From Rhizobium sp. SG_E_25_P2 (GTDB lineage: Bacteria; Pseudomonadota; Alphaproteobacteria; Rhizobiales; Rhizobiaceae): 64,000 bases of DNA. Shown one piece after another: positions 9,028 through 59,274 of this stretch (its first letter is position 1; each line of letters begins with the position of its first letter). The translations under genes and the position numbers were made by a program. A model generated the notes under the pieces. It saw only the letters and a list, made by a program, of their open reading frames with translations. It searched no databases and was not told the origin of the DNA. The stretch is taken from contig NZ_JARXVM010000004.1 in NCBI RefSeq assembly GCF_029892285.1, positions 124,001 through 188,000 of the forward strand. The letters are read 5' to 3'.

Positions 9028-9041
9028 GATGTTTTGGCCTT

Positions 9042-10535
9042 TCAGGCGCCCCAACGGAAATTCTTGCCGTCCATCGGCCAGACGCTGTCCTCGGTCGAGG
9101 CGATCCGCCGCTCGGCCTGCTCGACGGCGCGCTCTACAGGAATGACGGCGTCCATATGGCCGCCCAGCGCCCGGTAGTCCTCGAGCCGCATGGTGAATTC
9201 GATCGGCGCGACAATGGCCGGCGTCGGCACATAGCCGAAACTGTTGGTCGGCATCTTGGTGACGTCGGCCATCACGGTGATGCCGCCGCCCGGCCAGACA
9301 TAAGCGGGCGCTCCGCCCACCGAAACATAGGTCAGCGCATCTTTGACCGACCGCGTCAGCCGCACCGGATTGGTGGTGACGCCCGCGCGCAGGCTGCCGC
9401 CGGCGCCGCCGATGAACAGCACCGAGGTCATCGCCGGTTCGCAGTTTTCGGCGACGATCTCGACCGTTTCCTGCACTGCGGAGGGCAGGATGTCCTGCAG
9501 AACCGGCTGCAGGTTTTCATCAAGGATGTAGTAGCCGTATTGCTCGCCGGTGGTGGAGACCATCAGCAGGCGCAGGCCGGGATAGGCGACCTTGGGGTCG
9601 AAATCGCCGAGAATGGCGAGCGGATCGGAAATATTGGTGCCGCCCCAGCCGGTGCCGGGTTCTGCGACCTGGAAATAGCGGCCCGGCGTCGAACGGCGGC
9701 CCTTGATCTTGATGCCGGTGGGCGCGACGTCGAGAAGTTTGCCTGCCTGATGTTCAGAAAGGACGCCGGTGATATGGTCGTCGACCACCACGACCTCGTC
9801 CACCATGTCCTTCCACTGCTTGGCGAACATGCCGATCGTTGCGGAGCCGCAGCCCACGCGCATGCGGCTTTCCTCGACGCCATTGATGATGGGGGGACAG
9901 CCGGCCGTAAGCCGGAGCGTCGCGCCGCCGTCGATGACGAGGTCGACGCTTTCGCGGTTACAGAGGCGCAGGATCGTGTCGCAGGTGACGCGGCCCTCTT
10001 TCTTGGAGCCGCCGGTCAGATGATGCACGCCGCCGATCGACAGCATCTGCGAGCCATATTCGCCCGTGGTCACATGGCCGACGGGTTCGCCATCCACCAG
10101 CACTTTGGCGGTCTCGGGGCCGATGAAGCGATCGGTGTCGATCTTTATCTTGGCGCCGCAATAGGAGAAGATGCCTTCGGTAACCACGGTCACCATATCG
10201 ACGCCAGCATGGGTCTGCGACACAATGAAGGGGGCCGGTTTGTAATCGGGATAGGTGGTGCCTGCGCCGACAGCGGTGACGAAGGGCGTCGAGGCGTGGA
10301 CGAGGTCGCCATTCCACTCTTCCGAGGGCTCGTTGGGCAGGAAAGCCACCACCTTGCCGCCATCGTCGATGGTGTTTTCGATAATGGTCAGGGGATCAAC
10401 GCGGATGAGCTCGCCGCCGACATTGGCGTAGCGGTCGCAGGCGCCGGAACGACCGTCGGCGATGTAGCACATGACCGGACAGGCGTCGCAGCGGATCTTT
10501 CCATTCACGGCGCTTTCGACTTGCTGTTTGACCAT
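9042..10535 (-). CDS. 6-hydroxynicotinate reductase-like iron-sulfur protein
   Basis: A 497-residue protein of the family annotated from Eubacterium barkeri 6-hydroxynicotinate reductase, which reduces 6-hydroxynicotinate to 1,4,5,6-tetrahydro-6-oxonicotinate with ferredoxin-level electrons. The N-terminus holds four cysteines (C16, C19, C23, C33; pattern C-x2-C-x3-C-x9-C) suited to a 4Fe-4S cluster. Further on are FSYCGAKIKID near residue 125, RMRVGCGSATIGMFA near 225 and a glycine-rich IGGAGGSLRAGVT near 375. It is first of a four-gene operon with UPF0280 and the DUF1185 pair, driven by a TTGACA promoter overlapped by a palindrome. Nicotinate dehydrogenase genes lie on the other side of the MarR gene, which supports the name. 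Many homologues sit in clusters lacking nicAB, so another ring substrate remains possible. Confidence 0.8.
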   Translation of the reverse strand: MVKQQVESAVNGKIRCDACPVMCYIADGRSGACDRYANVGGELIRVDPLTIIENTIDDGGKVVAFLPNEPSEEWNGDLVHASTPFVTAVGAGTTYPDYKPAPFIVSQTHAGVDMVTVVTEGIFSYCGAKIKIDTDRFIGPETAKVLVDGEPVGHVTTGEYGSQMLSIGGVHHLTGGSKKEGRVTCDTILRLCNRESVDLVIDGGATLRLTAGCPPIINGVEESRMRVGCGSATIGMFAKQWKDMVDEVVVVDDHITGVLSEHQAGKLLDVAPTGIKIKGRRSTPGRYFQVAEPGTGWGGTNISDPLAILGDFDPKVAYPGLRLLMVSTTGEQYGYYILDENLQPVLQDILPSAVQETVEIVAENCEPAMTSVLFIGGAGGSLRAGVTTNPVRLTRSVKDALTYVSVGGAPAYVWPGGGITVMADVTKMPTNSFGYVPTPAIVAPIEFTMRLEDYRALGGHMDAVIPVERAVEQAERRIASTEDSVWPMDGKNFRWGA

Positions 10536-46014: not shown

Positions 46015-46044
46015 TTGACTTTTGTCAGCGTTCGTGAATAATGT
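46015..46044 (+). promoter_or_regulatory. Promoter of the sorC-type regulator
   Basis: TTGACT (46015-46020), 18-bp spacer, TAATGT (46039-46044). The -35 lies in a small palindrome, TGAC-TTTT-GTCA, and an ATGTCA half-site overlaps the -10. ATGTCA is also the half-site of the mtn operator at 53724-53746, so autoregulation is possible. Confidence 0.45.
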
Positions 46045-46077
46045 CAGAAACGCTGCGCAAAGGGAGATGCGAGGGAC

Positions 46078-47037
46078 ATGCGGTCCACAGACCAGATCAT
46101 GCACAAGGCCGCCTGGCTTTATTACATGCACGGGCTCCGGCAGGACGAGGTCGCCAAGCAGCTCAATATTTCTCGCGCCTCGATCGCCACCTATCTCAGG
46201 CGCGCCCGCGAGATCGGCATCGTCAATATCTCCACGTCGACGCAGCTGTTCTCTGATGACGTTCTGGCGCGCAAGCTCGAAGACGCGCTGAGCCTGGAGA
46301 CCGTCTGGATCGTGCCGGAGGACCGGTTGGCCATCGATCCGGCGGCGGAAATGCCTGTTGTGGCGGCCGCCGTCTTTCTCGAACTGATCAACAAGGGCGA
46401 CCGGATCGGCGTGGCCTGGGGCCGGACGGTCTATCATCTCGCCGATGTCATGCCCTATGCCGATCTCCAAGGCGTCACCGTCGTGCAACTCTGCGGCAAT
46501 CTCGGCGCGCCCTATAATTACCGTCCCGACCAGTGCACGACAGAAATCGGCCGGCGGCTCAATGCTGAAGGCATCAATCTCTATGCGCCGCTGGTGCTGA
46601 GTTCCGAGCGCCTGGCGAGCGATCTGCGCAACGAGCCTGTCATCCGCGAACAGCTCGCCTCGATCGCCGACTGTCAGCTGGTGCTCTATTCGGTCGGCGG
46701 CATCGAAAGCGACAGCCATCTGGTGCGCTGCGGCGCACTGACGCCAGAGGAAATGCAGGCTCTAGGAGAGGGCGGCGCGGGAGGGGTCATCGCCGGCCAG
46801 GTCATCGATCATGAGGGCCGCTGGCTCGACTGTCCGCACAATCGCCGCTGCATTTCGGCGGATCTGGAGATCATCAAGACGATCCCCAAGCGGATGATGG
46901 TGGTGGAGGAGGATTCCAAATTCCAGCCGCTGGTGGCCGCCATCAAGGGCGGCTTCGTCTCGCATCTCGTGGTGACGCATTCCATGGCGATGCGGCTTCT
47001 GGCCCGCTGGGAGGCTGAGGGACCACAGCGCAGCTGA
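46078..47037 (+). CDS. SorC/DeoR-type sugar-binding transcriptional regulator
   Basis: A 319-residue regulator. The helix-turn-helix is near residues 18-45 (LRQDEVAKQLNISRASIATYLRRAREIGIV). The rest is a SorC-type phosphosugar-binding domain with GVAWGRTVYHLADVMP near 108, VVQLCGNLGAPYN near 132 and VLYSVGGIES near 202. Such proteins sense a phosphorylated pentose or hexose intermediate. It is 66 bp upstream of the aldolase gene and is the only sugar regulator near the mtn and ABC genes, so it is their most likely controller. Confidence 0.9.
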   Translation: MRSTDQIMHKAAWLYYMHGLRQDEVAKQLNISRASIATYLRRAREIGIVNISTSTQLFSDDVLARKLEDALSLETVWIVPEDRLAIDPAAEMPVVAAAVFLELINKGDRIGVAWGRTVYHLADVMPYADLQGVTVVQLCGNLGAPYNYRPDQCTTEIGRRLNAEGINLYAPLVLSSERLASDLRNEPVIREQLASIADCQLVLYSVGGIESDSHLVRCGALTPEEMQALGEGGAGGVIAGQVIDHEGRWLDCPHNRRCISADLEIIKTIPKRMMVVEEDSKFQPLVAAIKGGFVSHLVVTHSMAMRLLARWEAEGPQRS

Positions 47038-47057
47038 GAGCTAGGCAATTAGAATTC

Positions 47058-47083
47058 TCCGCCCGGCCCGGATGCCGGGCGGA
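47058..47083 (+). promoter_or_regulatory. Hairpin between regulator and aldolase genes
   Basis: A perfect stem with CCGCCCGGC / GCCGGGCGG arms (10 bp with the flanking T-A pair) and a 6-nt loop, without a T-run. It ends about 20 bp before the aldolase start and could modulate its translation or stabilise the processed message. Confidence 0.5.
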
Positions 47084-47103
47084 ATCATGTTGAGGAGGAA
47101 ACT

Positions 47104-49158
47104 ATGGACAATCTCTGGAACGACCAGGACGCCGAGCGCATGGTCGAAACCTATGCGCCCAAGGGCGTCAATCGCGATCTCGCGCTGCGCACCTATACGA
47201 CGCGACTTCTCGGCGGCGTGCCGAAACTCGTTCTGCATGGCGGCGGCAATACGTCGGTCAAGACCACCGTCACCGATCTGGTCGGCGATGAATGGGACGT
47301 GCTCTGCGTCAAGGGCAGCGGCTGGGACATGGGAGTCATCGAGCCCGCTGGCCTGCCGGCGGTCAAGATCGCGCCGCTGCTCAAGGCCCGCAAGCTCGAT
47401 CGTCTGTCAGACGAAGACATGGTGACGCTGCAGCGCGCCAATCTCATCGATCCATCCTCGCCCAATCCCTCGGTGGAAGCGCTTCTGCACGCCTTCATTC
47501 CGCATAAATTCGTCGATCACACCCATTCCACCGGCGTGCTCGCGATTGCAGATCTCTCCGACAGCATGGCGCGCAGCAAGGAACTCTATGGCGACAAGAT
47601 GGGCTATGTGCCCTATGTCATGCCGGGCTTCGCGCTCGCCAAACTGGCCGCCGAAGTCTATGACCGGAATCCAGACGTCGAGGGGCTGATCCTCGACAAG
47701 CATGGCATCTTCACCTTCGGCGCGACTGCGAAGGAAGCCTATGACCGGATGATCCACTATGTGAGCATGGCCGAGGACTATGTCCGCGCCCATGGCCGCA
47801 ACCCCTTCACGCCTGTGACGCTGCCGAGCGCGCTCGCCAAGCCCGAGGATATCGCGCCGATGCTGCGCGGAGCCGTCGCCGTGCCCAAGGGCGAGGGCCG
47901 TTTCGACCGCATGGTCAGCGCGTTCCGCACCTCTCCCGACATCCTCGCTTTCGTCAACGCGGCCGAGGTCGAAGACATGGCGCGACGCGGCGTGTCGACG
48001 CCGGATCTCTCCATCCGCATCAAGACCGGACCGGTGGTGCTGGCCGCGCCCGAAGCCGGCAAGCTCGACGCCTACAAGTCCGACATCGCCGCCCGCGTTG
48101 CCGGCTTCATCGAGGATTACACCAATTATTTCAAGGCCAATGACGGCCGCGACGGCGTCAAGAAGATCATGCTCGATCCCATGCCGCGCCTGACGCTGGT
48201 TCCCGGTCTCGGCCTGTTCGGCCATGGCCGCACGCTGAAGGACGCGAAGATCGCCGCAGATGTCGCGGAAACCTGGATCGAGACCGCCCGCGACGCCGAA
48301 TCCATCGGCCGTTTCGAGCCTGTCAGCAAGCCTGACCTCTTCGATCTCGAATATTGGTCTCTGGAACAGGCCAAGCTCGCCGGCGCCAAGCCGAAGCCGT
48401 TCACCGGTCAGGTGGCGCTGGTCACCGGCGGCGCGGGCGCGATCGGCGCGGCTGTCGCCAAGGCCTTCGCCCGCGAAGGCGCCCATGTCGTGGTGCTCGA
48501 TCTCGATGGCGCCAAGGCTGCGGATGCGGCCAAGGCGGCCGGCAATATGTCGATCGGCGTCGCCTGCGACGTCACCGACCCGGCGTCGGTTCGCGCCGCT
48601 TTCGATAAGGCTGTCGCGACCTATGGCGGCGTCGATATCGTGATATCCAATGCCGGCGCGGCCTGGGAGAGCCCGATCGCCACCATGGACGATGCACTGC
48701 TGCGCAAGAGTTTCGAACTCAACTTCTTCGCTCATCAGACCGTGGCGCAGAATGCTGTGCGCATCATGAAGGAGCAGGGCACGGGCGGCGCGCTTCTGTT
48801 CAACGCCAGCAAGCAGGCAATCAATCCGGGCGCAAAATTCGGCGCTTACGGTCTGGCCAAGGCGGCGACCTTGTTCCTGTCGCGGCAATATGCGCTGGAG
48901 CATGGCGCTGCCGGCATCCGCGTCAACGCGGTGAATGCCGACCGGATCCGCTCCGGCCTGCTCAACGACGATATGATCGCCAACCGCGCCGCAGCCCGCG
49001 GCCTGTCCGTCAAGGATTACATGGGCGGCAATCTGCTCGGCCTCGAAGTGACCGCCGAGGATGTCGCCCAGGCCTTCGTCCACCATGCCCTGGCGGAGCG
49101 GACAACGGCCGATGTCACGACCGTGGATGGCGGGAATATTGCCGCGATCCTGAGGTAA
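47104..49158 (+). CDS. Bifunctional class II aldolase / short-chain dehydrogenase
   Basis: A 684-residue fusion of the type annotated rhamnulose-1-phosphate aldolase/alcohol dehydrogenase. The aldolase part, to about residue 430, has LHGGGNTSVK near 40, CVKGSGWDMG near 63 and the zinc motif KFVDHTHSTGVLAI near 136. The dehydrogenase part starts near 435 with VALVTGGAGAIGAAVAKAF and has the catalytic YGLAK near 580. AGGAGG precedes ATG 47104. Family members split a ketose-1-phosphate to DHAP and an aldehyde, then oxidise the aldehyde. Beside mtnK and mtnA, 5-methylthioribulose-1-phosphate or 5-deoxyribulose-1-phosphate is a better candidate substrate than rhamnulose phosphate. Confidence 0.9.
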   Translation: MDNLWNDQDAERMVETYAPKGVNRDLALRTYTTRLLGGVPKLVLHGGGNTSVKTTVTDLVGDEWDVLCVKGSGWDMGVIEPAGLPAVKIAPLLKARKLDRLSDEDMVTLQRANLIDPSSPNPSVEALLHAFIPHKFVDHTHSTGVLAIADLSDSMARSKELYGDKMGYVPYVMPGFALAKLAAEVYDRNPDVEGLILDKHGIFTFGATAKEAYDRMIHYVSMAEDYVRAHGRNPFTPVTLPSALAKPEDIAPMLRGAVAVPKGEGRFDRMVSAFRTSPDILAFVNAAEVEDMARRGVSTPDLSIRIKTGPVVLAAPEAGKLDAYKSDIAARVAGFIEDYTNYFKANDGRDGVKKIMLDPMPRLTLVPGLGLFGHGRTLKDAKIAADVAETWIETARDAESIGRFEPVSKPDLFDLEYWSLEQAKLAGAKPKPFTGQVALVTGGAGAIGAAVAKAFAREGAHVVVLDLDGAKAADAAKAAGNMSIGVACDVTDPASVRAAFDKAVATYGGVDIVISNAGAAWESPIATMDDALLRKSFELNFFAHQTVAQNAVRIMKEQGTGGALLFNASKQAINPGAKFGAYGLAKAATLFLSRQYALEHGAAGIRVNAVNADRIRSGLLNDDMIANRAAARGLSVKDYMGGNLLGLEVTAEDVAQAFVHHALAERTTADVTTVDGGNIAAILR

Positions 49159-49167
49159 CCGGCTCCG

Positions 49168-49584
49168 TTAGCCCAGATCAGTATGTATGAAATCGTTCCC
49201 CTTGTAGAGGAGGGGAACGCGTTCAGCCTTTGCGCATGCATAGCTGAAACAGTCGCCAAGATTTAGGCTTGCGCGATGGCCGACTACTTTGCCGTACACA
49301 CGAGCAGCCATCAAGGCAAGCACGCCAATCTCGGTTGTGATACCAACTTCCCGAACGCCAATTTCAACGAGCATTCCATTCACGAGCATTTCAGCTTCAC
49401 CAAGGGCTTGCCCTCGGTTGTTGGCGTATGAGTCTGGACTTCGAGCAAAAGCAAGAACGGCTTCAAATTTTGAGAGTGGAGAAACCAAAAACTCCCCAGA
49501 GCACTCGTCCATGCGATCCGCAATGGCTTTCCACCCCGGCTCCCGCGCAAGAAGCGCAACGATGACCGAAGCGTCCAAGAACAT
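49168..49584 (-). CDS. vapC: VapC-type PIN-domain toxin ribonuclease
   Basis: A 138-residue PIN nuclease. The acidic set is present: D4 in MFLDASVIVALL, glutamate in SKFEAVLAF near residue 41, and aspartate in LNLGDCFSYACAKAERVPLLYKGNDFIHTDL near 110 and 129. Its ATG overlaps the antitoxin stop by one base (TAATG). The pair is placed between the aldolase and ABC genes and is lower in GC than its surroundings, which suggests insertion. Confidence 0.92.
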   Translation of the reverse strand: MFLDASVIVALLAREPGWKAIADRMDECSGEFLVSPLSKFEAVLAFARSPDSYANNRGQALGEAEMLVNGMLVEIGVREVGITTEIGVLALMAARVYGKVVGHRASLNLGDCFSYACAKAERVPLLYKGNDFIHTDLG

Positions 49585-49829
49585 TAGATGTCACCCCACA
49601 TCTCGTCGAAGAACGCCTTCATATCAAAATTCGGATCACGGGGCCCCATCTTCGCTGCCAGCGCTTGCGACGCAGCGAGCCGTTCGCGCATCGGCCTCTT
49701 TTCGCTGACGCGCCTCAGTTCATTTTCAAGCGCTTGCTTGACGGCATCCTTCTTGGTCGGCGCGTTGGTCACCTTTTGAAGCTCGCTTGCCAAAGCATCG
49801 ACTGTCTCGTCGCGAATGAATAGAGCCAT
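49584..49829 (-). CDS. vapB: VapB-type antitoxin
   Basis: An 81-residue antitoxin of the Rv0623/PSK type. It starts MALFIRDETVDALASELQ, followed by a ribbon-helix-helix-like region to about 45 (TKKDAVKQALENELRR) and a toxin-binding tail RDPNFDMKAFFDEMWGDI. GGAGG lies 7 bp before ATG 49829. It is expressed ahead of vapC and should neutralise it and repress the promoter. Confidence 0.9.
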   Translation of the reverse strand: MALFIRDETVDALASELQKVTNAPTKKDAVKQALENELRRVSEKRPMRERLAASQALAAKMGPRDPNFDMKAFFDEMWGDI

Positions 49830-49922
49830 GAAGAGCCCTCCAGATATCTCTCTTCTCATAGCAGATAGATGGGCGTGGTAAAATGCCTCGCTCAGAGATG
49901 AGCCGCCCAAGCTCTCAAAAGC

Positions 49923-49955
49923 AAAAAAGCCCAGCCGGGGCGAACCGGCTGGGCT
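49923..49955 (-). terminator. Rho-independent terminator of the ribose-type ABC operon end
   Basis: Perfect 11-bp stem AGCCCAGCCGG / CCGGCTGGGCT with a 6-nt loop, followed on the minus strand by TTTTTT. It starts 27 bp after the binding-protein stop. Confidence 0.92.
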
Positions 49956-49981
49956 CATTTTACATGCCGTCGAACTTAAAC

Positions 49982-51031
49982 TTACTTCGCGTTCGGGTTC
50001 GGCATCCAGGCGGGCATTACGACATCGGCATGGGCGAACTGCGGCAATTTCGCGCCGAGTTCCTCGACATTCTTGATGTCCTTGTCGAGCAGATCCTTCT
50101 GGGTGATCAGCGTCGGCGGAACGATGACGCTTTTGCCGGGGTCTTCGCCGGTGAGCATCATGGCCAGCGCGCGGACCGATACCTGGCCGACGACTGCGGG
50201 ATTGGTGGCGGCGGTGGCGGCCCAGGCGGAGCCCGGTTCGCGCATCGCGGCGATGTCGGAGGTCGAGATGTCGGCGGAATAGATCTTCACGCTGGAGGAC
50301 ATGCCGGCTTCGTCGACGGCGATCTTCACGCCCTTGGCGAATTCGTCATAGGGCGCGAACATCACGGTGATGTCGGGATTGGCCGAAATGACCGAACGCG
50401 CCTGGTTGGCGACGGAGTTGGCGATCGGATTGTCGAGCGTACCGAACATCGCCTTTTCCTTGATGCCCGGATATTTCGCCTTGAACTCTTTCCAGGTTTC
50501 GTCGCGGCGGTCGAGCGGCGCGATGCCGGCGACATAGACATAGCCGGCGTTGAAGCTCTCGCCATTGTCCTTGATCGCCTGTTCAAGGGCGAGACGGGCG
50601 AGGTCGCGGTCGGACTGTTCGATCTGCGGGATCTTGTCGTTTTCGACATTGACGTCAAAAGCCACGACCTTGATGCCGGCGGCCACTGCGCGCTGGGCGG
50701 CTTCCTTCATGGATTCGGTCAGGCCGTGCTGGATGATGATGCCCTGCACGCCCATGGCGATGGCCTGGTCGACCATGTCAGCTTGGAGTGCGGCGTCCTG
50801 ACGGCTGTCGAGCACGCGCAGGTCGATGCCGAGCGCCTTGGACTGGGCTTCCACGCCCGCCAGATAGGACTGGAAGAAATCGCCGGTCGAGAGATAGCGG
50901 ACCAGCGCGATCTTGGCGCCGGGCTTGTCGAACGGGGCGGGCATATCGGCTGCGAGTGCCGCGCCTCCCAACGCGGCGGCGCCGATGACGCCGAGGGTGA
51001 GTTTTCCGAGCAGTCTGCGGGTGATCGTCAT
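49982..51031 (-). CDS. Ribose-type ABC transporter substrate-binding protein
   Basis: A 349-residue periplasmic binding protein of the RbsB type. The signal (LLGKLTLGVIGAAALGGAALA) ends near 28. The fold is visible in IALVRYLSTGDFFQSYLAGVEAQSKALGIDLRVLDSRQDA near 40-80, GVQGIIIQHG near 95, VVAFDVNVEN near 122, and TVMFAPYDEFAKGV near 217. The gene ends the operon ATPase - permease - binding protein, an unusual order since binding proteins usually come first. Divergent from mtnK, it probably binds 5-methylthioribose or another free pentose. Confidence 0.9.
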   Translation of the reverse strand: MTITRRLLGKLTLGVIGAAALGGAALAADMPAPFDKPGAKIALVRYLSTGDFFQSYLAGVEAQSKALGIDLRVLDSRQDAALQADMVDQAIAMGVQGIIIQHGLTESMKEAAQRAVAAGIKVVAFDVNVENDKIPQIEQSDRDLARLALEQAIKDNGESFNAGYVYVAGIAPLDRRDETWKEFKAKYPGIKEKAMFGTLDNPIANSVANQARSVISANPDITVMFAPYDEFAKGVKIAVDEAGMSSSVKIYSADISTSDIAAMREPGSAWAATAATNPAVVGQVSVRALAMMLTGEDPGKSVIVPPTLITQKDLLDKDIKNVEELGAKLPQFAHADVVMPAWMPNPNAK

Positions 51032-51071
51032 AGGGCTCCTCCACTTATTGACGGTCTGGTGTCTGTTCTTG

Positions 51072-51105
51072 CGCCTGCCGTCGGATAAAAGTCCTGCGGC
51101 AGGCG
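51072..51105 (-). promoter_or_regulatory. Intercistronic hairpin before the binding-protein gene
   Basis: Perfect 9-bp stem CGCCTGCCG / CGGCAGGCG with a 16-nt loop, between permease and binding-protein genes; no T-run. It could protect the binding-protein message from 5' decay and so raise its level. Confidence 0.5.
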
Positions 51106-51119
51106 ATGGTCCGGGCCGG

Positions 51120-52172
51120 TCACCGCTTGCGGTGCGACAGCGCGAAGGTGAAGACGAGAGCGACGACGAGCACGCCGCCCTTGACGAAATCCTGGGTGTA
51201 ATAGGGCGCGTTCATCATCGTCAGGCCCTGCAAGAGCACGCCGACAAACAATGCGCCGATTGCTGTGCCGAAGGCGTTGGGCTTGGCCGCGCCGAGCACC
51301 GCGAAACCGATCAGCGCCGCCGCGACCGCATCCAGCAAAAGATTGTTGCCCGAGGCGATGTCGCCGCGTCCCAGGCGGGCGGCAAGCAGGATGCCGCCGA
51401 TCGAGGCGAAGACGCCGGAGATGACATAGGCGCTGATCTTGTAGGCGTTGACCGGCGCGCCGGCGAGCGAGGCAGCGCGCTCATTCGAGCCGACGGCGTA
51501 CATCATGCGGCCGAAGCGGGTGTATTCGAGGAAGAACCAGATGACGATCGCCAGCACGATCAACACCACCACCGACACCGGCAACAGGTTCGGCAGGATG
51601 AAATCGAAGCGATGGCGGCCGAGCGCCAGGAAGGCGGGCGAGAACGTGCCGTTCGCCACGGTTCCATCCGGCAGGCTCATGCCGGTGGCGATCGAGCGGC
51701 CCTCGGTTGGAATGCGCTGCAGGCCGACCAGCAGGAACATCATGCCGAGCGTCGCCAGGAGATCCGGCACGCGCATATAGACAATCAGCACACTGTTGAC
51801 GAGGCCGACGGCGACGCCGATCAGAATGCAGACGAGGGTGGCGGTCATCGCATCGCCGCCCATCACCACCATCACATAGGACGAGGCCATCATCGCCGTG
51901 GTGGCGACCGAGCCGATCGACAAGTCGAAGCCGCCCACCACCAGCGTGGCGGTGACGCCCAACGCCAGAATGCCGGTGATCGACACCGATTGCAGGATGA
52001 AGACGGCGCTTTGCGGCGAAGCGAAGCCGTCGGTCGACACGCAGAAGAACAGGATGAGGCCGAGCAGCAGCACGAGGAAGCCATATTTGATGGCGAGCTC
52101 GCGGCCGGTCAGCTTGCGGGCCTGCATCGGCCGGTGGGTGAGGGGGGACGTGACGTTCGTCTGTTCGGTCAT
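51120..52172 (-). CDS. Ribose-type ABC transporter permease
   Basis: A 350-residue RbsC-class permease with about ten hydrophobic segments. Family motifs are LGVTATLVVGGFDLSIGSVATTAMMASS near residue 70 and YAVGSNERAASLAGAPVNAYKISAYVISG near 225. It starts 2 bp after the ATPase stop. Confidence 0.93.
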   Translation of the reverse strand: MTEQTNVTSPLTHRPMQARKLTGRELAIKYGFLVLLLGLILFFCVSTDGFASPQSAVFILQSVSITGILALGVTATLVVGGFDLSIGSVATTAMMASSYVMVVMGGDAMTATLVCILIGVAVGLVNSVLIVYMRVPDLLATLGMMFLLVGLQRIPTEGRSIATGMSLPDGTVANGTFSPAFLALGRHRFDFILPNLLPVSVVVLIVLAIVIWFFLEYTRFGRMMYAVGSNERAASLAGAPVNAYKISAYVISGVFASIGGILLAARLGRGDIASGNNLLLDAVAAALIGFAVLGAAKPNAFGTAIGALFVGVLLQGLTMMNAPYYTQDFVKGGVLVVALVFTFALSHRKR

Positions 52173-52174
52173 GA

Positions 52175-53683
52175 TCAGGCAACCATATGATTTTGGCCCG
52201 CGATCTGAGCGAGCAATTTGTCGAGATCGATATCGGCGTTTTGATGTTCGCCGACGATCGTGTGTTCCGACATCACGAGAATGCGGTCGGCGACCTCGAA
52301 GGCCTCGTCGAGTTCGGTCAGAAACACGACGGTGGTGCGTCCTTCAGCCGAGGCGCGTAGTTTCGCGCCGATATCACGGCGGGCGGCGATGTCGACGCCC
52401 TGGAAGGGCTCGTCGAGGATCAGGAGACGCGAGGCTTGCGACAGCCAGCGTCCGACCATCACCTTCTGCTGATTGCCGCCTGACAAAGTGTTCATTTCGT
52501 CGAATTCGTTGCGGCAGACCACGCCCAGTTCGCGGATCTGCCGCTGCGCCATGTCGCGTTCACGGCGCCTGTTGGTGACGCCGAAGGTCGAGATGCGCCG
52601 CAGAAACGGCAGGCTGATGTTTTCGTAGATGTTGAAGCCCGGCACGATGCCGTTGTCACCACGATCCTTGGCGATGAGAAACACGCCTTTGTCGATCGCA
52701 GCCCGTGTCGATGACGGGTGATAGGCCGCGCCATCCAGGCGCATCTGGCCTGCGAAAGGTCGGCGTGCGCCGAACAGGGTTTCGGCAAGCACCGTCTTGC
52801 CGACGCCGACAAGGCCGGTGATCGCCACCACTTCGCCCGCGCCGAAGGATAGCGAGAGAGGCTTCGATGTCGGCGTAATCTGCAAGCTGTCAGCCGTGAA
52901 AACGGGCCGCGTCGCCGCGCGCAGCGTGATGTCGCCGGCCGAGACTTTCTTGCCGAGCATGGCGTTGACAGCGCCTTCGTAATCGAGCTCCGGCCCTTCG
53001 AAAAGGCCGGCGATGCGGCCGTCGCGCAGGCTGACGATGGTGTCGGCAAGCCGGCGGATGTCGGACATGCGGTGTGAGATGTAGAGGATGGCGACGCCGC
53101 GCGCCTTGAGACGCTCGACGAGTTCAAACAGCCGCTCGGCCTCGGCGCTCGACAGCGACGAGGTCGGCTCGTCGAGGATCAGCACTTTCGGTTCATGCGC
53201 CATGGCCCGTGCGATCGCCACCATCTGGCGGTCTGCGAGCGAGAGATCGTTGATATTGGCGGAGAGATCGAGCGACAGGCCCATGCGCTCGGCCACAGCC
53301 TGGGCTTCGCGCTTCACCCGGCGCGGATTGAAGATCAGCCGCGCGCCGCGACCGTTCAGTCGGTCGAGCGTCAGATTGGTGGCGACGTCGAGATCGGCCA
53401 CCACGCCGTCATTGATATTCTGATGCACGGTCACGACGCCTGCGCGCATGGCTTCAGCCGGCGTCACCGGCGCATAGCTCGCACCCGCCAGCGACATCGT
53501 TCCGCCATCATGGTCGTAGACCCCGCTGACGATACGCACCAGCGTGGATTTTCCGGCGCCATTGGCGCCCATCAAGACCGTCACCGCTCCAGCGCGCAAT
53601 TCGAGATCGACCCCGCCCAGAACATGGACGCGACCAAACGATTTGCGCAAGCCGGCGATGCGGAACACCGCTTCTTGCACCAT
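52175..53683 (-). CDS. Ribose-type ABC transporter ATPase, duplicated
   Basis: A 502-residue two-cassette ATPase of the RbsA class. Cassette one has Walker A GANGAGKST near 38 and Walker B KVLILDEPTSSLS near 160. In cassette two the loop reads GLVGVGKT near 280, with the signature LSGGNQQKVMVGRWL near 393 and LLILDEPFQGVD near 413. GGAGG lies 6 bp before ATG 53683; an earlier in-frame ATG lacks a ribosome site. It is first of the minus-strand importer operon. Confidence 0.93.
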   Translation of the reverse strand: MVQEAVFRIAGLRKSFGRVHVLGGVDLELRAGAVTVLMGANGAGKSTLVRIVSGVYDHDGGTMSLAGASYAPVTPAEAMRAGVVTVHQNINDGVVADLDVATNLTLDRLNGRGARLIFNPRRVKREAQAVAERMGLSLDLSANINDLSLADRQMVAIARAMAHEPKVLILDEPTSSLSSAEAERLFELVERLKARGVAILYISHRMSDIRRLADTIVSLRDGRIAGLFEGPELDYEGAVNAMLGKKVSAGDITLRAATRPVFTADSLQITPTSKPLSLSFGAGEVVAITGLVGVGKTVLAETLFGARRPFAGQMRLDGAAYHPSSTRAAIDKGVFLIAKDRGDNGIVPGFNIYENISLPFLRRISTFGVTNRRRERDMAQRQIRELGVVCRNEFDEMNTLSGGNQQKVMVGRWLSQASRLLILDEPFQGVDIAARRDIGAKLRASAEGRTTVVFLTELDEAFEVADRILVMSEHTIVGEHQNADIDLDKLLAQIAGQNHMVA

Positions 53684-53723
53684 GAACTCCTCCCTTGTCC
53701 GCACTCTAAAAGCGCATTTAATC

Positions 53724-53746
53724 AAATGTCAAGGCCATTGACATTT
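53724..53746. promoter_or_regulatory. Shared operator between divergent mtn and ABC operons
   Basis: Perfect 9-bp arms AAATGTCAA and TTGACATTT around a 5-bp centre. Each arm contains a TTGACA -35 box, one facing mtnK (53738-53743) and the other facing the ABC operon (complement of 53727-53732). The -10 boxes are weak in both directions (TTAGGA-like and TAGAGT-like), typical of regulated promoters. The SorC-type protein at 46078 is the likely ligand. Confidence 0.75.
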
Positions 53747-53824
53747 GCTAGCATGGCAATTTAGGAAATGGGGGAGGGCCGGTTTCGCGCAAGGAGGCGC
53801 GCCCGGACCCACGGGAGGAAAAGC

Positions 53825-55087
53825 ATGCAAACATTCGAGGCGCTGAACGCCGAGACGCTGCCCGTTCGTCTTGGCTCCTACGCCGTCCTGACCGACCGTA
53901 TCGGCTCGGCTGCTGATGGCTGGACCGTTCGCGAAGTGGGTGACGGCAATCTCAATCTGGTCTTTATCGTCGAAGGCGCAAAGGGCAGCCTGATCGTCAA
54001 GCAGGCGCTGCCTTATGTGCGCTTGGTCGGCGAAAGCTGGCCCTTGCCGCTCAAACGGTCCTATTTCGAATACAACGCGCTGATCCGACAGGCCGAACGC
54101 GATCCGGGCATGACCCCGGACGTGCTGTTCTTCGATCGCGAACAGGCGATCATCGTTATGGAGTTCCTGACGCCGCACATCATTCTGCGGCGCGCGCTGA
54201 TCGAAGGTCAGCAGCTTCCCAAGATCGGCCGCGATCTCGGCCTGTTCCTGGCGCGCACACTGTTTCGCGGCTCTGATCTCGCCATGGAGGCGCGCAAGCG
54301 CAAGGAAGACCTGGCGCTGTTCGCCGACAATGTCGAATTATGCGACATCACCGAGAACCTTGTGTTCTCCGATCCCTATTACGAGGCCGTACTCAACCGG
54401 CATACGACGCCGCAGCTCGACGGCATCGTGGCCGAACTCCGCGCCGACCGCGATCTCAAGGTCGAGGCGCAGCGGTTGAAACACAAATTCGTCGCCCATG
54501 CCGAAACGCTGCTGCATGGTGATCTGCATACCGGCTCGGTGATGGTGACCCCGGACAATACCCGGGTCATCGATCCCGAGTTCGCCTTTTATGGGCCTAT
54601 GGCCTTTGACGTCGGCATGCTGCTCGCTAATTTCTGGATGAGCTATTTCTCGCAGGCGGGCCATGAAAAGGCCGGTGACCGCGAGGAGATGCGCGCCTAT
54701 CTGCTCGGCGTCGTTGTCGAGATCTGGGACGTGTTCCGCGCCGAATTCGCTCATCTCTGGCGCACCGAGCGCAAGGGCATCCTGTATCAGGCCGCTCTCT
54801 TTGAAAATCGCGGCGATCCGCTCGGGGCCGAACAGGCGCTGGACGAAGTTCTGCACGCAATCTGGGACGACATGCTTGGATTTGCAGGCATCGAGATTCA
54901 CCGGCGCATTCTCGGCCTGGCGCACAACGCCGATTTTGAAACCATTGAGGATGCGGATCTCCGCGCCCGTTGTGAAACCAAGGCGCTCAAGCTGGGCCGC
55001 CACCTCGCCGTCAACAGGCACAGGATCCACGGCCTCGCCGAGATCCATGCGCTCGCCGAACGGCTGGAAAAGGAGATTGTCTCGTGA
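53825..55087 (+). CDS. mtnK: S-methyl-5-thioribose kinase
   Basis: A 420-residue kinase that phosphorylates methylthioribose at O1. Signatures are [32 protein letters not shown] near residue 40, [11 protein letters not shown] near 178, the catalytic loop [17 protein letters not shown] near 226 and [15 protein letters not shown] near 252. ATG 53825 has GGAGG 7 bp upstream. It overlaps mtnA by 4 bp (GTGA). Kinases of this family can also act on 5-deoxyribose, so the import substrate may be either. It stands divergent from the ribose-type importer. Confidence 0.93.
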
Positions 55088-56178
55088 AAGTCGGAGACCG
55101 CCACTACCGCACCATCTGGATGAACGAAGACGGCCGCTCCATCGACGTCATCGACCAGCGCTGGCTGCCGCATGAATTCCGCGTCGTCACGCTGAAGACC
55201 GTCGACGATGTCGCCACCGCCATCCGTGATATGTGGATCCGCGGCGCGCCGCTGATCGGCGTCACTGCAGCCTATGGCGTGGCGATCGCGATGAACGAGG
55301 ACGCCTCGGACGCCGCCCTCGACCAGGTCTGGGAAAAGCTGCACGAGACGCGGCCGACCGCGATCAACCTGCGCTGGGCGCTCGACGCGATGCGCGCTCA
55401 TTTGAAGGCCTATCCCGAATCCGAACGCGCTGAAGCCGCCTATGCGCGGGCGCATGAGATTGCCGATGAGGACGTTGAGCTCAATCGCTCAATCGGCGCC
55501 AATGGGCTGGAACTGATTCGCAGGATCGCCGCCGGGAAGAAGCCGGGCGAGCCGGTCAATATTCTCACCCATTGCAATGCCGGCTGGCTGGCGACCGTCG
55601 ATTACGGCACGGCGACTGCGCCGATCTATATGGCGGTCGAAGAGGGCATTCCGGTTCACGTCTATGTCGACGAGACCCGGCCCCGCAATCAGGGCGCCCA
55701 GCTGACCGCCTGGGAAATGAACGGCCATGGCGTGCCGCATACGCTGATCGTCGACAATGCCGGCGGCCATCTGATGCAGCATGGCCAGGTCGACATGGTG
55801 ATTGTCGGCACCGACCGCACCACGGCCAATGGCGATGTCTGCAACAAGATCGGCACCTATCTCAAGGCGCTTGCCGCCCGCGACAACGACGTGCCGTTCT
55901 ACGTGGCGCTGCCGTCGCCGACCATCGACTGGACGGTCAAGGACGGCGTCAAGGAGATCCCCATCGAAGAGCGCAACAGCGACGAAGTGACCTTTGTCCA
56001 GGGGCGCGCCGCCGATGGCTCCATCGCCATGGTGCGGATTTCTCCCCAGGGCAGCCCGGCGGCCAATCCGGCCTTCGACGTGACCCCGGCGCGCCTGATC
56101 ACCGGCCTGATCACCGAACGCGGCGTCGCCCAGGCCTCGCCCGACGGCCTCAAGGCCATGTTCCCCGAACGGAGCTGA
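55084..56178 (+). CDS. mtnA: S-methyl-5-thioribose-1-phosphate isomerase
   Basis: A 364-residue isomerase giving 5-methylthioribulose-1-phosphate. It has [19 protein letters not shown] near residue 48, the catalytic C164 in [10 protein letters not shown] and D244 in [19 protein letters not shown]. The start is GTG 55084 inside the mtnK stop. A stop-to-start gap of 5 bp leads to the transketolase genes. Confidence 0.94.
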
Positions 56179-56183
56179 TAGAG

Positions 56184-57119
56184 ATGACCCTGACCAATCG
56201 GCAAAGCACGGAAGATGTGGCGGCGGGTATCCGCAAGCGCGTCTTCTTTCACACCATGCGCAACAATGGCGGCTATCTGAGCCAGGCCTGTTCGGCCGCC
56301 GAAAGCCTCGCTTTCCTCTACAATGAAGCGCTCAATCTCGGCGAACCGACGCTTCCGAAAGTGCCGCTGCCCTTTTCCGGCGTGCCCTCGGCAACCAATC
56401 CGGACGCCTTCACCGGCGCCGGCTATCACGGTCCTTTCGCTCCCGAATATGACCGCTTCATCATTTCGCCCGCCCATTATGCTCTGGTGATCTATTCGGC
56501 TCTCATTCAGATGGGCCGCATGGACGAACATGCGCTCGATCACTTCAATCGCGACGGCAGTTCCGTCGAAATGATCGGCGCCGAGCATAGCCCCGGAATG
56601 GAAGTCACCACCGGCTCGCTCGCCCAGGGCCTGTCGATGGCCTCGGGCGTCGCCTGGGCGCGCAAGCGCAGGGGAGAGGCCGGCAAGGTCTGGGTCTATA
56701 TGTCTGACGGCGAATTCCAGGAAGGGCAAACCTGGGAATGCCTGGCGGCGATGGCCTATCACGGCATCGACAATATCCGTGTCGTCGTCGACGTGAACCG
56801 CCAGCAATGCGACGGCGCGATGTCGTCGGTGCTCGATCTCGGCGATCTCGCCGCGCGCGTCGCCTCCTTCGGCGTCACCTGCCGGTCGATCAACGGCCAT
56901 GATCTCGACGCTTTCCGCGAGGCTGCCGCCAGCGCGGAGCCGGGCAAGCCGCTGATCATTCTCGCCAACACCTCGCCCTATCAGGGCATGGAATTCCTGA
57001 AGCGCCGTTTCCCGCGTCTGCACTATGTCCGGTTCAAATCGGCTCAGGAACACCAGGAAATGCAGACCGCCATCGCTGCCGAACTCGGCGTCGATGAAGC
57101 CGAAATCGCGAGGGCCTGA
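56184..57119 (+). CDS. Transketolase N-terminal subunit
   Basis: A 311-residue ThDP-binding half of a two-gene transketolase. It contains SPAHYALVIYSALIQMG near 95, EHSPGMEVTTGSLAQGLSMASG near 135 and the ThDP motif DGEFQEGQTWE near 175 ending at VDVNRQQCDG. It forms the active site with the next gene product. Separate-subunit transketolases occur in sugar-catabolic clusters, for example AptA/AptB for apulose-4-phosphate. In this operon it may act on a ketose phosphate from methylthioribose breakdown; the usual pentose-phosphate role would not need this location. Confidence 0.9.
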   Translation: MTLTNRQSTEDVAAGIRKRVFFHTMRNNGGYLSQACSAAESLAFLYNEALNLGEPTLPKVPLPFSGVPSATNPDAFTGAGYHGPFAPEYDRFIISPAHYALVIYSALIQMGRMDEHALDHFNRDGSSVEMIGAEHSPGMEVTTGSLAQGLSMASGVAWARKRRGEAGKVWVYMSDGEFQEGQTWECLAAMAYHGIDNIRVVVDVNRQQCDGAMSSVLDLGDLAARVASFGVTCRSINGHDLDAFREAAASAEPGKPLIILANTSPYQGMEFLKRRFPRLHYVRFKSAQEHQEMQTAIAAELGVDEAEIARA

Positions 57120-57121
57120 TC

Positions 57122-58123
57122 ATGGTGGAAATCGTCAATCGTCCCTACGCCAAGGCCTTTGGGGCCTTTGCCTCGGCGCGTCCCGAAATTCTCTGCCTGT
57201 CGGCGGACCTCACCTCGTCTTGCGAGGTCGACGGCTTCCGTGACCGGCATCCCGACCAGTTCCTGTCGCTCGGCATGGCAGAGCAGAACATGCTGTCCTT
57301 TGCCGGCGGTCTGGCCATGCAGGGTTTCCGGCCCTTCATCCACACCTTTGCGGTGTTCCTCTATCGCCGTCCTTATGACCAGCTGATCAATTCCATCGCT
57401 TATTCGAACCGCAAGGTCAGGATGATGGGCTTCCTTCCGGGCATCACCACGCCGGGCGGCATCACCCATCAGGCGATCGAGGATATCTCGGTCATGCGGG
57501 CGATCCCCAATATGACCATTCTCGAATGCGGCGACGCCACCGAAGTCGAAACCGTGCTTGAGGTCGCCGACAGTATCGACGGTCCCGTCTATGTCCGCGT
57601 GCTGCGCGGCGAGGTGCCACGGCTGTTTTCCACGCCCTTCGTGTTCAACAAGGTCAGGACGTTGAGTGAAGGCGACGACGTGCTGGTGGTCACCGCGGGC
57701 GTCTGCACCGAGGAAGCGATGCGCGCGGCCGAACCGCTGAAGGCGCGTGGCGTTGGGGTTCATCACCTGCACGCATCCACCCTGAAGCCCTTCGATCGCG
57801 AGGCGATCGTCAAGGCTGCCGCCGGCAAGAAAGGCGTGGTGACGCTCGAGAATCACACGATCAATGGCGGGCTGGGCTCGATGGTTGCGGAAATTCTCGC
57901 CGAGGAGGGGATGGGCGTCAAATTGCGCCGGCTCGGACTCAACGACACTTTCGCGCACGGCGCCTCCAAGCCTTACCTCATGAAGAAGTACAAGTTGGAC
58001 GCCAGCGCGCTGGTCTCGGCCATTTCCGACCTGCTGGGCAGGCCGCTCGACATTGCCGATGCCGAGTTCGAGGCTGTGCGACTTGACGCGGTTCATTCCA
58101 CCCAGAAGGCGGAGGCGCTCTGA
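57122..58123 (+). CDS. Transketolase C-terminal subunit
   Basis: A 333-residue pyrimidine-binding half. It carries the catalytic-type glutamate in SLGMAEQNMLSFAGGLAMQG near residue 52, the RPYDQLINSIAYSNRKVRM block near 82, and a C-terminal domain starting near 190 (DDVLVVTAGVCTEEAM). ATG 57122 lies 2 bp after the partner's stop and the stop overlaps the RuBisCO-like start by one base (TGATG). Such tight packing means subunits and RuBisCO-like protein are made together. Confidence 0.9.
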   Translation: MVEIVNRPYAKAFGAFASARPEILCLSADLTSSCEVDGFRDRHPDQFLSLGMAEQNMLSFAGGLAMQGFRPFIHTFAVFLYRRPYDQLINSIAYSNRKVRMMGFLPGITTPGGITHQAIEDISVMRAIPNMTILECGDATEVETVLEVADSIDGPVYVRVLRGEVPRLFSTPFVFNKVRTLSEGDDVLVVTAGVCTEEAMRAAEPLKARGVGVHHLHASTLKPFDREAIVKAAAGKKGVVTLENHTINGGLGSMVAEILAEEGMGVKLRRLGLNDTFAHGASKPYLMKKYKLDASALVSAISDLLGRPLDIADAEFEAVRLDAVHSTQKAEAL

Positions 58124-59241
58124 TGGCTCGGTTCTCAGTCACCTATTGGGTCGGGGCGCGTGACGAGAGCGAGGCGCGCCAGCGCGCCCTAGACATCGCG
58201 CTCGAACAGACCGTCGAGATTCCGCGCGATGCGGTGCCCGCAGGTTATGTCGAGGATGAGATTCTCGGCAAACTCGAAAGGTTGGAGCCGGGGCGTGACG
58301 CGCGCGGCGGCTATCTCGCCGAAATCTCCTATAGCGAGGACGATATCGGCGGCGATTTCCTGCAATTGCTCAACATCATCTTCGGCAATTCCTCGATCAA
58401 GACCAATATCCGCGTCGAGGACATCACGCTGTCGCCGGGCATTTTGGAGTTATGCTCCGGTCCGCGTTTCGGCATCGAGGGTTTGCGCGCGCGGGCGGGC
58501 CTGACTTCAGGGCCGCTTCTGATGTCGGCGATCAAGCCCGTCGGTCTGTCGTCGCGGGAACTGGCGAAAATCGCTCATGATTTCGCGTTGGGCGGTATGG
58601 ATTACGTCAAGGACGATCACGGTCTCGTCGACCAGAAGACCTCGCCCTTCCTGGAACGGGTCAAGGCCTGCGTCGCCGCCGTGCATGACGCCAACGCCAA
58701 GACCGGCGGCAAATGCTCCTTCGTGCCGAACATCACCGGTCCGGCGCGGCAGGTGCTCGACCGCGCCTTTGAGGCCAAGCAAGCCGGCGTCGGCGCCGTC
58801 ATGCTCGCGCCCGCGCTGGTGGGGTACGACGTGGCGCGAGAACTGGCTGCCGATTCGTCCTTCGGCATTCCCATCGTCTCGCATCCGACTTTCGGCGGTC
58901 CGAATGTGCTGACGCCGACGACAGGCTTTTCGCTGCGCTTCTATTACGGGCTGTTGCCGCGCTTGATGGGCTGCGACGCCGTCGTCTATCCCAATTTCGG
59001 CGGACGTTTCGGCTTCAGCCTCGAAGAATGCCAGTCGATCGTCGATGGCTGCCGCGCCGAATTCGGCGGCTACAAGTCGATTGCGCCTGCGCCAGGCGGC
59101 GGCATGTCGTTGGCTCGCGTCGACGAGATGAAATCCGCCTATGGCGACTATGTCATGTATCTGATCGGCGGCGCGCTAATCCGCGAAAAAGACGGGCTCA
59201 CCGACGCCTGCCGACGTCTCGTCGACGCTGTCAGGGCCTGA
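58123..59241 (+). CDS. RuBisCO-like protein (form IV)
   Basis: A 372-residue RuBisCO large-chain homologue that should not fix CO2. The carbamylation lysine is kept (K163 in DYVKDDHGLVDQ), followed by D165; the usual glutamate after it is H166. The first catalytic lysine (K138 in SAIKPVGLSS) is kept but the second, two residues on, is Val. The loop-6 lysine region reads YPNFGGRFGFS and has no lysine. This set fits enolase/isomerase or decarboxylase RuBisCO-like proteins. In Rhodospirillum rubrum one such protein turns methylthioribulose-1-phosphate into 1-methylthioxylulose-5-phosphate, which fits mtnK-mtnA upstream; related ones act on oxo-isoapionate phosphate. The exact clade needs a tree. 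Confidence 0.92.
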   Translation: MARFSVTYWVGARDESEARQRALDIALEQTVEIPRDAVPAGYVEDEILGKLERLEPGRDARGGYLAEISYSEDDIGGDFLQLLNIIFGNSSIKTNIRVEDITLSPGILELCSGPRFGIEGLRARAGLTSGPLLMSAIKPVGLSSRELAKIAHDFALGGMDYVKDDHGLVDQKTSPFLERVKACVAAVHDANAKTGGKCSFVPNITGPARQVLDRAFEAKQAGVGAVMLAPALVGYDVARELAADSSFGIPIVSHPTFGGPNVLTPTTGFSLRFYYGLLPRLMGCDAVVYPNFGGRFGFSLEECQSIVDGCRAEFGGYKSIAPAPGGGMSLARVDEMKSAYGDYVMYLIGGALIREKDGLTDACRRLVDAVRA

Positions 59242-59246
59242 ACGAC

Positions 59247-59274
59247 AAAGGCCGGCGCACGAACGCCGGCCTTT
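59247..59274. terminator. Bidirectional terminator between the mtn operon and minE
   Basis: Perfect 11-bp stem AAAGGCCGGCG / CGCCGGCCTTT with a 6-nt loop in the 53-bp gap between convergent genes. The T-rich 3' ends serve both strands. Confidence 0.88.

Follow-up and report, generated by a model that had tools for sequence, protein, structure and literature searches.

What would a two-gene transketolase and a RuBisCO-like protein (RLP) do behind the first two enzymes that break down methylthioribose (MTR), a sulphur-bearing cellular waste product? The question is raised by a locus of the soil bacterium Rhizobium sp. SG_E_25_P2, found in a 64,000-nucleotide stretch of DNA that was analysed whole (the window). 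Methylthioadenosine commonly arises as waste, and the ways in which bacteria recover its sulphur in the absence of oxygen are understood only in part.

Five plus-strand genes, with intergenic gaps of −4, 5, 2 and −1 bp, form a gapless operon: mtnK (methylthioribose kinase; 53825–55087; TIGR01767, 497.5 bits for a cut-off of 275), mtnA (methylthioribose-1-phosphate isomerase; 55084–56178; TIGR00512, 450.4 bits for a cut-off of 279), TKN (ThDP-binding half of a split transketolase-like enzyme; 56184–57119; Transketolase_N PF00456, and 591 bits to alignment A2), TKC (its pyrimidine-binding and C-terminal half; 57122–58123; PF02779 and PF02780) and RLP (58123–59241; PF00016), a putative methylthioribulose-1-phosphate 1,3-isomerase. 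Divergent from this operon, a ribose-type ABC importer is encoded on the minus strand by genes for a substrate-binding protein (49982–51031; PF13407, 111 bits), a permease (51120–52172; PF02653, 136 bits) and an ATPase with two ABC domains (52175–53683; PF00005 in two stretches), the start of the last being set at an internal ATG, read from the sequence, of a frame that is open to TTG 53725. Upstream, on the plus strand, lie a SorC/DeoR-type sugar-responsive regulator (46078–47037; PF04198 Sugar-bind, 166 bits; DeoR model NF053881, 149.8 bits, below the cut-off of 420) and AldSDR, a bifunctional fusion of a class II aldolase and a short-chain dehydrogenase (SDR) (47104–49158; NF006192 PRK08324.1-6, 1142.8 bits for a cut-off of 639). 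Operon, divergent importer, regulator and fusion were all found where the original prediction had placed them. Missing from its list were a PIN/antitoxin pair (49168–49958) and a 25-bp palindrome in the divergent promoter (53723–53747; CAAATGTCAA-N5-TTGACATTTG), which is an operator candidate.

The genome, which is 99.5% complete, was searched for the enzymes of other salvage routes. No match was found in it for mtnD (ARD), and three weak matches for mtnB were all under the cut-off; the predicted absence of both thus holds genome-wide, and universal methionine salvage was ruled out. Cupin methylsulfurylase, also predicted to be absent, had no match in the genome, an empty answer that is little proof as it comes from one cupin query; within the limits of that query, the cupin shunt was ruled out for this genome. 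That route, the MTA-isoprenoid shunt of Rhodospirillum rubrum and Rhodopseudomonas palustris, pairs a DeepYkr RLP with the cupin methylsulfurylase and employs MtnP, whereas here the cluster holds MtnK plus an importer, and a split ThDP enzyme instead of the cupin. The RLPs of the two systems are related and share their conserved residues, and here too the MtnA product would be handled by RLP.

The nearest solved chain to RLP is 3qfw (E 4e-72), which we take to be a member of the DeepYkr clade and which in turn sits closer to a cupin-type RLP (419.8 bits). Against the MtnW model TIGR03332, RLP scored 129.7 bits for a cut-off of 513.6, and its conserved residues in the alignment (from which L037, L100, L121, L122, L127 and L132 were left out) are those of cupin-type RLPs. 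The clade name follows PMC5893883. A second RLP of the genome, on contig C9, is among the outgroup sequences of the RLP tree (four weaker RLPs, L067–L070; 30 near-copies were left out of the tree, plus L123, L141 and L147, which have no long frame). A partial RLP match of 155 residues was seen in G282.

Among 397 genomes of the order, the split transketolase (TK) adjoins RLP in 21 of the 22 best-scoring genomes (including L038, which shows only the TKC end at its contig end) and lies ~19 kb from it in the 22nd. None of the next 13 RLPs by score has an adjacent TK; 11 of the 13 adjoin one small-protein cluster, the L054 copy of which is Cupin_2. TK-type and cupin-type RLPs were separated by bit score (at least 306 versus at most 258), percent identity having been dropped as a border for two cupin-type matches at 42–43%. 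TKC is beside RLP in 69 of 80 named relatives, in five phyla (a script placed TKC at most 1 kb from RLP in 68; in L152, the 69th, the locus is truncated where the contig stops). Of the other 11, six carry a family TKN at a distance from RLP or on a separate contig (G071, G778, G782, G783, G785 and G786), and in five, all metagenome bins, none was found. L128 has TKC, with TKN unmatched in the locus stretch examined. In the reverse test, TKN was matched in full in 3 of 385 genomes of the class (this one and two more), each time beside an RLP. Both mtnK and mtnA are present in 41 of the 46 TK-adjacent named loci with stretches of at least 18 kb, and a cupin match was found in none of the 68 TK-adjacent named loci. 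In L040, L041, L042, L046 and L047, neither mtnK nor mtnA was found in the stretch examined. As the family rows contain near-copies and some order-level genomes are also named ones (L034 and L100 are identical in the RLP tree), these counts are not independent events. The case for an RLP-TK grouping beyond chance is made by the co-occurrence at order, class and named-genome level. A neighbourhood search for RLP genes adjoining split TKs, which the original prediction had proposed, thus revealed a widespread pairing; no paper on the pair was found in searches of an open-access library, and its standing as a conserved module seems to be what is new.

In the TK tree (53 family rows after a list of 30 was thinned out), the RLP-linked TKs form a single clade. 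The nearest solved chain to TKC is 6yaj (E 1.3e-61), from the Carboxydothermus split transketolase (6yaj, 6yak), which, like SqwGH of sulfoquinovose degradation, shares the two-gene transketolase fold. In E. coli TktA numbering, D155, N185, E411 and H473, which we take to be ThDP-binding and catalytic residues of transketolase, are kept in 82 of 82 family rows, as are S385 and R520 (the alignment omits L042, L122, L123 and L159, which are short, frame-broken or a window duplicate; L167 and L173, with no in-frame TKC partner, lie outside it). Positions H26, H100, H461 and D469, presumably the sugar contacts, are Y, I, L and G in all 82 rows. The changes of H100 to I and D469 to G occur in none of 33 other split TKs, chosen by similarity to the family, and others recur among these 33: H26 to Y in 14, H461 to L in 11, Y440 to R in 32 and SDG for GDG in 19, the R358 position not being conserved. 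The notion that every active-site change is unique to the family was dropped, since several are common to the comparison set. The label of split transketolase is therefore better taken to name a fold than an activity, because several sugar-contacting residues are replaced.

The palindrome is the sole site at three or fewer mismatches in the 5.56-Mb genome (reversed control, 0), and none was found in 100 shuffles of the window. The operator candidate is conserved in relatives, is common to the mtnK, TKN and RLP promoters and is found again there in front of TKN and RLP genes that stand apart.

The activities of MtnK and MtnA are known for their families. The operon would import MTR through the ABC importer and break it down, MtnK converting it to MTR-1-phosphate and MtnA converting this to 5-methylthioribulose-1-phosphate. 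By homology with characterised relatives, RLP would then shift the carbonyl within the carbon chain to form 1-methylthioxylulose-5-phosphate, leaving the methylthio group adjacent to the ketone; R. palustris RLP1 yields methylthioxylulose-5-phosphate in vitro (PMC5893883). The split ThDP enzyme would stand in for the cupin methylsulfurylase, with thiamine attack at C2, cleavage between C2 and C3 and release of glyceraldehyde-3-phosphate. Isomerisation of the MtnA product by RLP, followed by cleavage by the ThDP enzyme, as originally predicted, is the reading best backed by sequence comparison (exchange of the cupin for a TK partner, shared operator and changed active site), and the balance leans slightly towards the product of RLP being the substrate of the ThDP enzyme.

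The methylthio-C2 adduct on ThDP would most likely lose methanethiol to give acetyl-ThDP, from which acetate, acetyl phosphate or acetyl-CoA may be released. This step would parallel sulfoacetaldehyde acetyltransferase (Xsc) and phosphoketolase, whose ThDP adducts carry a leaving group on the neighbouring carbon and become acetyl-ThDP; both belong to other ThDP families, and on this analogy, one of mechanism, elimination of methanethiol is proposed tentatively. SqwGH, likened here by description, serves an odd sulphur sugar, as the proposed enzyme would. The ketol unit that SqwGH moves onto glyceraldehyde-3-phosphate is sulphur-free (PMC11659671), whereas here the sulphur would sit on the C2 unit of the donor. 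Acetate kinase had no match in the genome, which argues against acetyl phosphate as the product in Rhizobium sp. SG_E_25_P2: release via that kinase is weakened. The two Pta-domain matches of the genome are in frames of 765 and 782 aa, and L221, read by eye, is malic enzyme-like; a plain acetyl-phosphate route is therefore doubtful here.

The missing acetate kinase fits an unlikely variant with the same substrate and cleavage, wherein the adduct is only protonated to 2-methylthioacetaldehyde, or its C2 unit is handed to an acceptor aldehyde, the reaction of a true transketolase, and the SDR half of AldSDR reduces the aldehyde. The transketolase fold with R520, S385 and H473 kept and the SDR encoded within the same cluster also agree with it, but its C2 product would be that of the aldolase exit, so that a two-enzyme route would gain little. 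H100 presumably holds the C1 hydroxyl of the donor; its loss would suit a donor lacking that hydroxyl and does not settle the fate of the adduct.

Under methanethiol elimination, the thiol could be reused by O-acetylhomoserine sulfhydrylase, which is over the cut-off in this genome and lies before TKN in L154, the one TK locus with a full-length copy (L088 has a 72-residue stretch). Elsewhere, a BisC-type S/N-oxide reductase is beside the module in L040, L041, L042, L046, L047, L190 and L210, and a homocysteine S-methyltransferase in L041, L042 and L046; neither was found in the 80 named loci. Such sulphur-metabolism neighbours, though few, are hints of a thioether in some relatives. The original prediction had left the substrate as MTR or a 5-deoxypentose; MTR is now favoured, and a 5-deoxypentose as sole substrate is less likely because of these neighbours. 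Quite improbable is 5-deoxyribose as the main substrate, taken by MtnK, MtnA and RLP to 1-deoxyxylulose-5-phosphate, with the ThDP enzyme as a reverse 1-deoxyxylulose-5-phosphate synthase or the product feeding isoprenoids. TKC is somewhat similar to Dxs (TIGR00204, 174.7 bits for a cut-off of 466), DrdK, a relative of MtnK, takes 5-deoxyribose as well as MTR (PMC6079011), and a transketolase can take 5-deoxyribose as acceptor (PMC8102628). However, the adduct on ThDP would lack a leaving group, and RLP would be superfluous, because in the known route an aldolase splits 5-deoxyribulose-1-phosphate. Least probable of all is that the TK halves serve another pentose phosphate under the same regulator, with RLP a neighbour by operon history only: other split TKs are accompanied by SDR and TRAP importer genes and not by RLP, and TKN is detached from RLP in six genomes, but the co-occurrence runs in both directions through five phyla and the operator is shared even when the genes are apart. 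Transketolase beside true RuBisCO in Calvin operons is a different case, since the study describing it excluded RLPs (PMC7895386).

The favoured RLP-ThDP route would require neither oxygen nor reductant. Possibly, though this is held with less than even confidence, it is an undescribed form of methionine salvage in which RLP and a dedicated two-subunit ThDP lyase yield glyceraldehyde-3-phosphate, methanethiol and an acetyl unit; its range would take in Alphaproteobacteria, sulphur-oxidising Gammaproteobacteria, Bacillota including acetogens, Spirochaetota, Chloroflexota and Nitrospirota. If so, methionine salvage would gain a new chemistry, with one ThDP enzyme cleaving both a carbon chain and a C–S bond beside a RuBisCO relative, RLPs would gain a further role, and the route could be a methanethiol source among soil bacteria and acetogens.

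A second exit from methylthioribulose-1-phosphate would lead via AldSDR to DHAP and methylthioacetaldehyde or methylthioethanol. In the DHAP shunt (MtnK or MtnP, MtnA and Ald2), mtnK, mtnA and a class II aldolase are likewise clustered with a DeoR/SorC-type regulator; here both mtnK and mtnA are over their cut-offs, the aldolase is present as a PRK08324 fusion to an SDR, and the RLP-TK branch is an addition. As an exit, the aldolase route is already known as the DHAP shunt, and AldSDR is probably an exit of that kind. Two exits from one intermediate in one locus had been predicted to be new, yet in R. palustris the RLP and aldolase routes have both been shown, their genes lying in separate places (PMC5893883); the same paper describes the enzymes that release methanethiol in the DHAP route as yet to be identified. 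AldSDR scored 484 bits against RhaD-ADH TIGR02632, under the cut-off of 567.75, and an AldSDR-like gene is present in the stretch examined of 37 of the 68 TK-adjacent named loci.

Gene and domain calls on the window bore out the gene list of the original prediction. The plus-strand operon (53825-59241) starts with mtnK and mtnA, both of which pass their NCBIfam cut-offs, continues with two genes for the N-terminal and then the C-terminal half of a transketolase fold (TKN and TKC; together TK), and ends with the gene of a RuBisCO-like protein (RLP), with successive intergenic gaps of −4, 5, 2 and −1 bp. The promoter between the operon and a divergent ribose-type ABC importer contains a perfect 25-bp palindrome (53723-53747), and past the importer lie a regulator and an aldolase-dehydrogenase fusion (aldolase-SDR). 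A PIN-domain toxin and Rv0623-like antitoxin pair (49168-49958; GC 0.53-0.56 versus ~0.63 in the surroundings) sits between this fusion and the importer.

RLP was matched in 174 of the 397 genomes of the order, and neighbourhoods were inspected for the top 22 RLPs (≥306 bits) and the next 13 (188 to 258 bits). TK is next to RLP in 21 of the 22 top-scoring genomes (counting locus L038, where only a TKC end is visible, at a contig end), and in the 22nd (G071) a TKN-TKC pair lies ~19 kb from RLP on the same contig. TK was beside none of the 13 next-scoring RLPs, 11 of which adjoin small proteins that all belong to one cluster, the L054 copy being a Cupin_2 protein. In a tree of 87 RLP rows, the cupin-type RLPs formed one group (SH-aLRT 88) with no TK-type row inside; this tree, for which the program gave a long-branch warning, does not settle where the TK-type rows are rooted. 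Moreover, the solved RLP 3qfw scored 419.8 bits to a cupin-type member versus 246 bits to the window RLP. The partner counts, the tree and these scores therefore indicate one kind of RLP that goes with the cupin and a sister kind that goes with the thiamine diphosphate (ThDP) enzyme.

The RLP-associated TKN/TKC (82 rows, 'the family') were aligned to Escherichia coli TktA and compared with 33 other split transketolases. D155, N185, E411, H473, S385 and R520 (TktA numbering) are conserved in the family, H66 is retained in 74 rows and replaced by Gln in eight, and R358 shows no conservation across the alignment. H100 is replaced by Ile and D469 by Gly in all 82 family rows, versus none of the 33 others. 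Changes of H26 to Tyr, GDG to SDG, H461 to Leu and Y440 to Arg were rejected as family-specific because part or most of the other split transketolases share them. The family formed one clade (SH-aLRT 100) in a tree built from 53 of its rows, the 33 others and TktA. H100 presumably contacts the hydroxyl at C1 of the donor; if so, the change to Ile is consistent with a donor that carries methylthio at that position. Split transketolases outside the family (L207, L208 and L209) are found in clusters of an SDR-like gene, TKN, TKC and genes that by eye resemble those of a TRAP importer.

The cupin of Rhodopseudomonas palustris and Rhodospirillum rubrum uses the RLP product, 1-methylthioxylulose-5-phosphate, as its substrate (excerpts of PMC5893883). 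As the cupin is the counterpart of the ThDP enzyme beside the sister RLPs, the plainest inference is that the latter uses this compound too. RLP would place the methylthio group adjacent to the ketone, and a ThDP adduct at the ketone could release glyceraldehyde-3-phosphate and then expel methanethiol, leaving an acetyl unit for which the window's genome shows no acetate kinase match. Such a mechanism requires neither oxygen nor reductant and would account for the use of an isomerase ahead of a transketolase fold. The aldolase-SDR may in turn split methylthioribulose-1-phosphate in the manner of Ald2, and the alcohol dehydrogenase termed 'putative' in the same excerpts might correspond to its SDR half. 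Searches of an open-access library yielded no paper on an RLP-transketolase pair, nor one linking the two to methylthioribose (MTR) or methanethiol. In the portions available, PMC7895386 places transketolase with true RuBisCO in Calvin operons and excludes RuBisCO-like proteins, and PMC8102628 describes a promiscuous transketolase active on 5-deoxyribose.

Among named genomes, the best 80 of at least 548 RLP relatives were considered. In 68 of the 80, a TKC on the strand of RLP lies ≤1 kb upstream of it, and 66 of these loci show TKN as well; in L152, a TKC end beside RLP is interrupted by the contig end. TK adjoins RLP in, among others, Rhizobium, Ensifer, Shinella, Devosia, Hoeflea, Thioploca and relatives, as well as Clostridium ljungdahlii, C. 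drakei, Spirochaetia, one Nitrospirae bin and, on the basis of a contig-cut TKC, an Anaerolineae bin. For the remaining 11, a family TKN was found elsewhere in six genomes and none in five, all metagenome bins; that of Shinella sp. SUS2 (L121) sits in a second complete cluster (L212), and that in the genome of L158 is cut by a contig end. Where at least 18 kb of sequence was present, mtnK and mtnA occurred together in 41 of 46 TK-adjacent loci. A reverse search with TKN gave full-length matches in three of 385 genomes of the class (591, 408 and 402 bits), RLP adjoining TKN in all three, and the next-best match (170 bits) is without the first 83 positions.

Other arrangements were also observed. 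In L151 an FGGY pentulose kinase gene (8409-9965) lies immediately 5′ of an RLP of this kind, together with an importer, perhaps representing another entry route; no family TKN was found in that genome. L065 (7053-11955) harbours in a row a distant mtnK, a glycerol-1-phosphate-dehydrogenase-like gene, RLP and a PfkB kinase gene, with neither TK nor cupin adjoining. An RbsD/FucU-type mutarotase gene is present in six clusters (L050, L052, L127, L131, L138 and L145; family checked on the L145 copy, the others assigned through similarity).

The palindrome occurs once in the window's genome at ≤3 mismatches. At ≤5 mismatches, at least one site is present in 59 of the 101 related loci (1.80 Mb in total); 550 kb of other sequence contained one site, so a few of the 59 may be due to chance. 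In loci with a divided cluster, degenerate copies with 3 to 5 mismatches precede TKN in eight loci (L040, L044, L048, L051, L053, L124, L126 and L129) and RLP in three (L138, L145 and L155); such copies are also upstream of TKN genes located elsewhere (L189, L190, L191 and L192), whereas L161, L193 and L195 gave no site. From these sites we infer that the genes concerned answer to a common signal. The palindrome has ends similar to those of CAAAT-N9-ATTTG, a candidate site of the E. coli regulator MtnR (PMC12632272, in part), which is a lead only.

Sulphur genes accompany the module in some relatives. A BisC-type molybdenum S/N-oxide reductase (family tested on the L047 copy) is near TKN-TKC in L040, L041, L042, L046, L047, L190 and L210, a hint at use of MTR S-oxide, and a homocysteine S-methyltransferase (tested on the L041 copy) is beside the module in three loci; neither was found in the 80 best-scoring named loci (of at least 548). 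An O-acetylhomoserine sulfhydrylase gene immediately precedes TKN in L154, and cysteine synthases are beside the module in L142 and L153. L142 also harbours a corrinoid methyltransferase set; sets of this type were proposed to serve methionine salvage in PMC10418091, whose accessible text lacks the terms transketolase and RuBisCO. Though each occurs in few loci, these neighbours speak for a thioether substrate.

The window's genome (5.56 Mb, 99.5% complete), whose closest named relative by RLP among the matches listed is Rhizobium sp. G21 (94% identity), gave no match to ARD/MtnD, to acetate kinase or to the cupin (single query, from an RLP-cupin pair), and none above cut-off to MtnB. Two Pta-domain matches lie within frames of 765 and 782 aa, one of which by eye looks like malic enzyme. 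An O-acetylhomoserine sulfhydrylase above cut-off is encoded, as is a methylthioadenosine/SAH nucleosidase above the TIGR01704 cut-off (L071, 1489-2394), the start of which resembles a signal peptide by eye; MTR for the importer could come from such an exported nucleosidase. The genome also encodes a second RLP of another clade (contig C9, 152955-153848; loci L001 and L069), followed by a 441-aa gene that by eye resembles a four-carbon acid sugar kinase.
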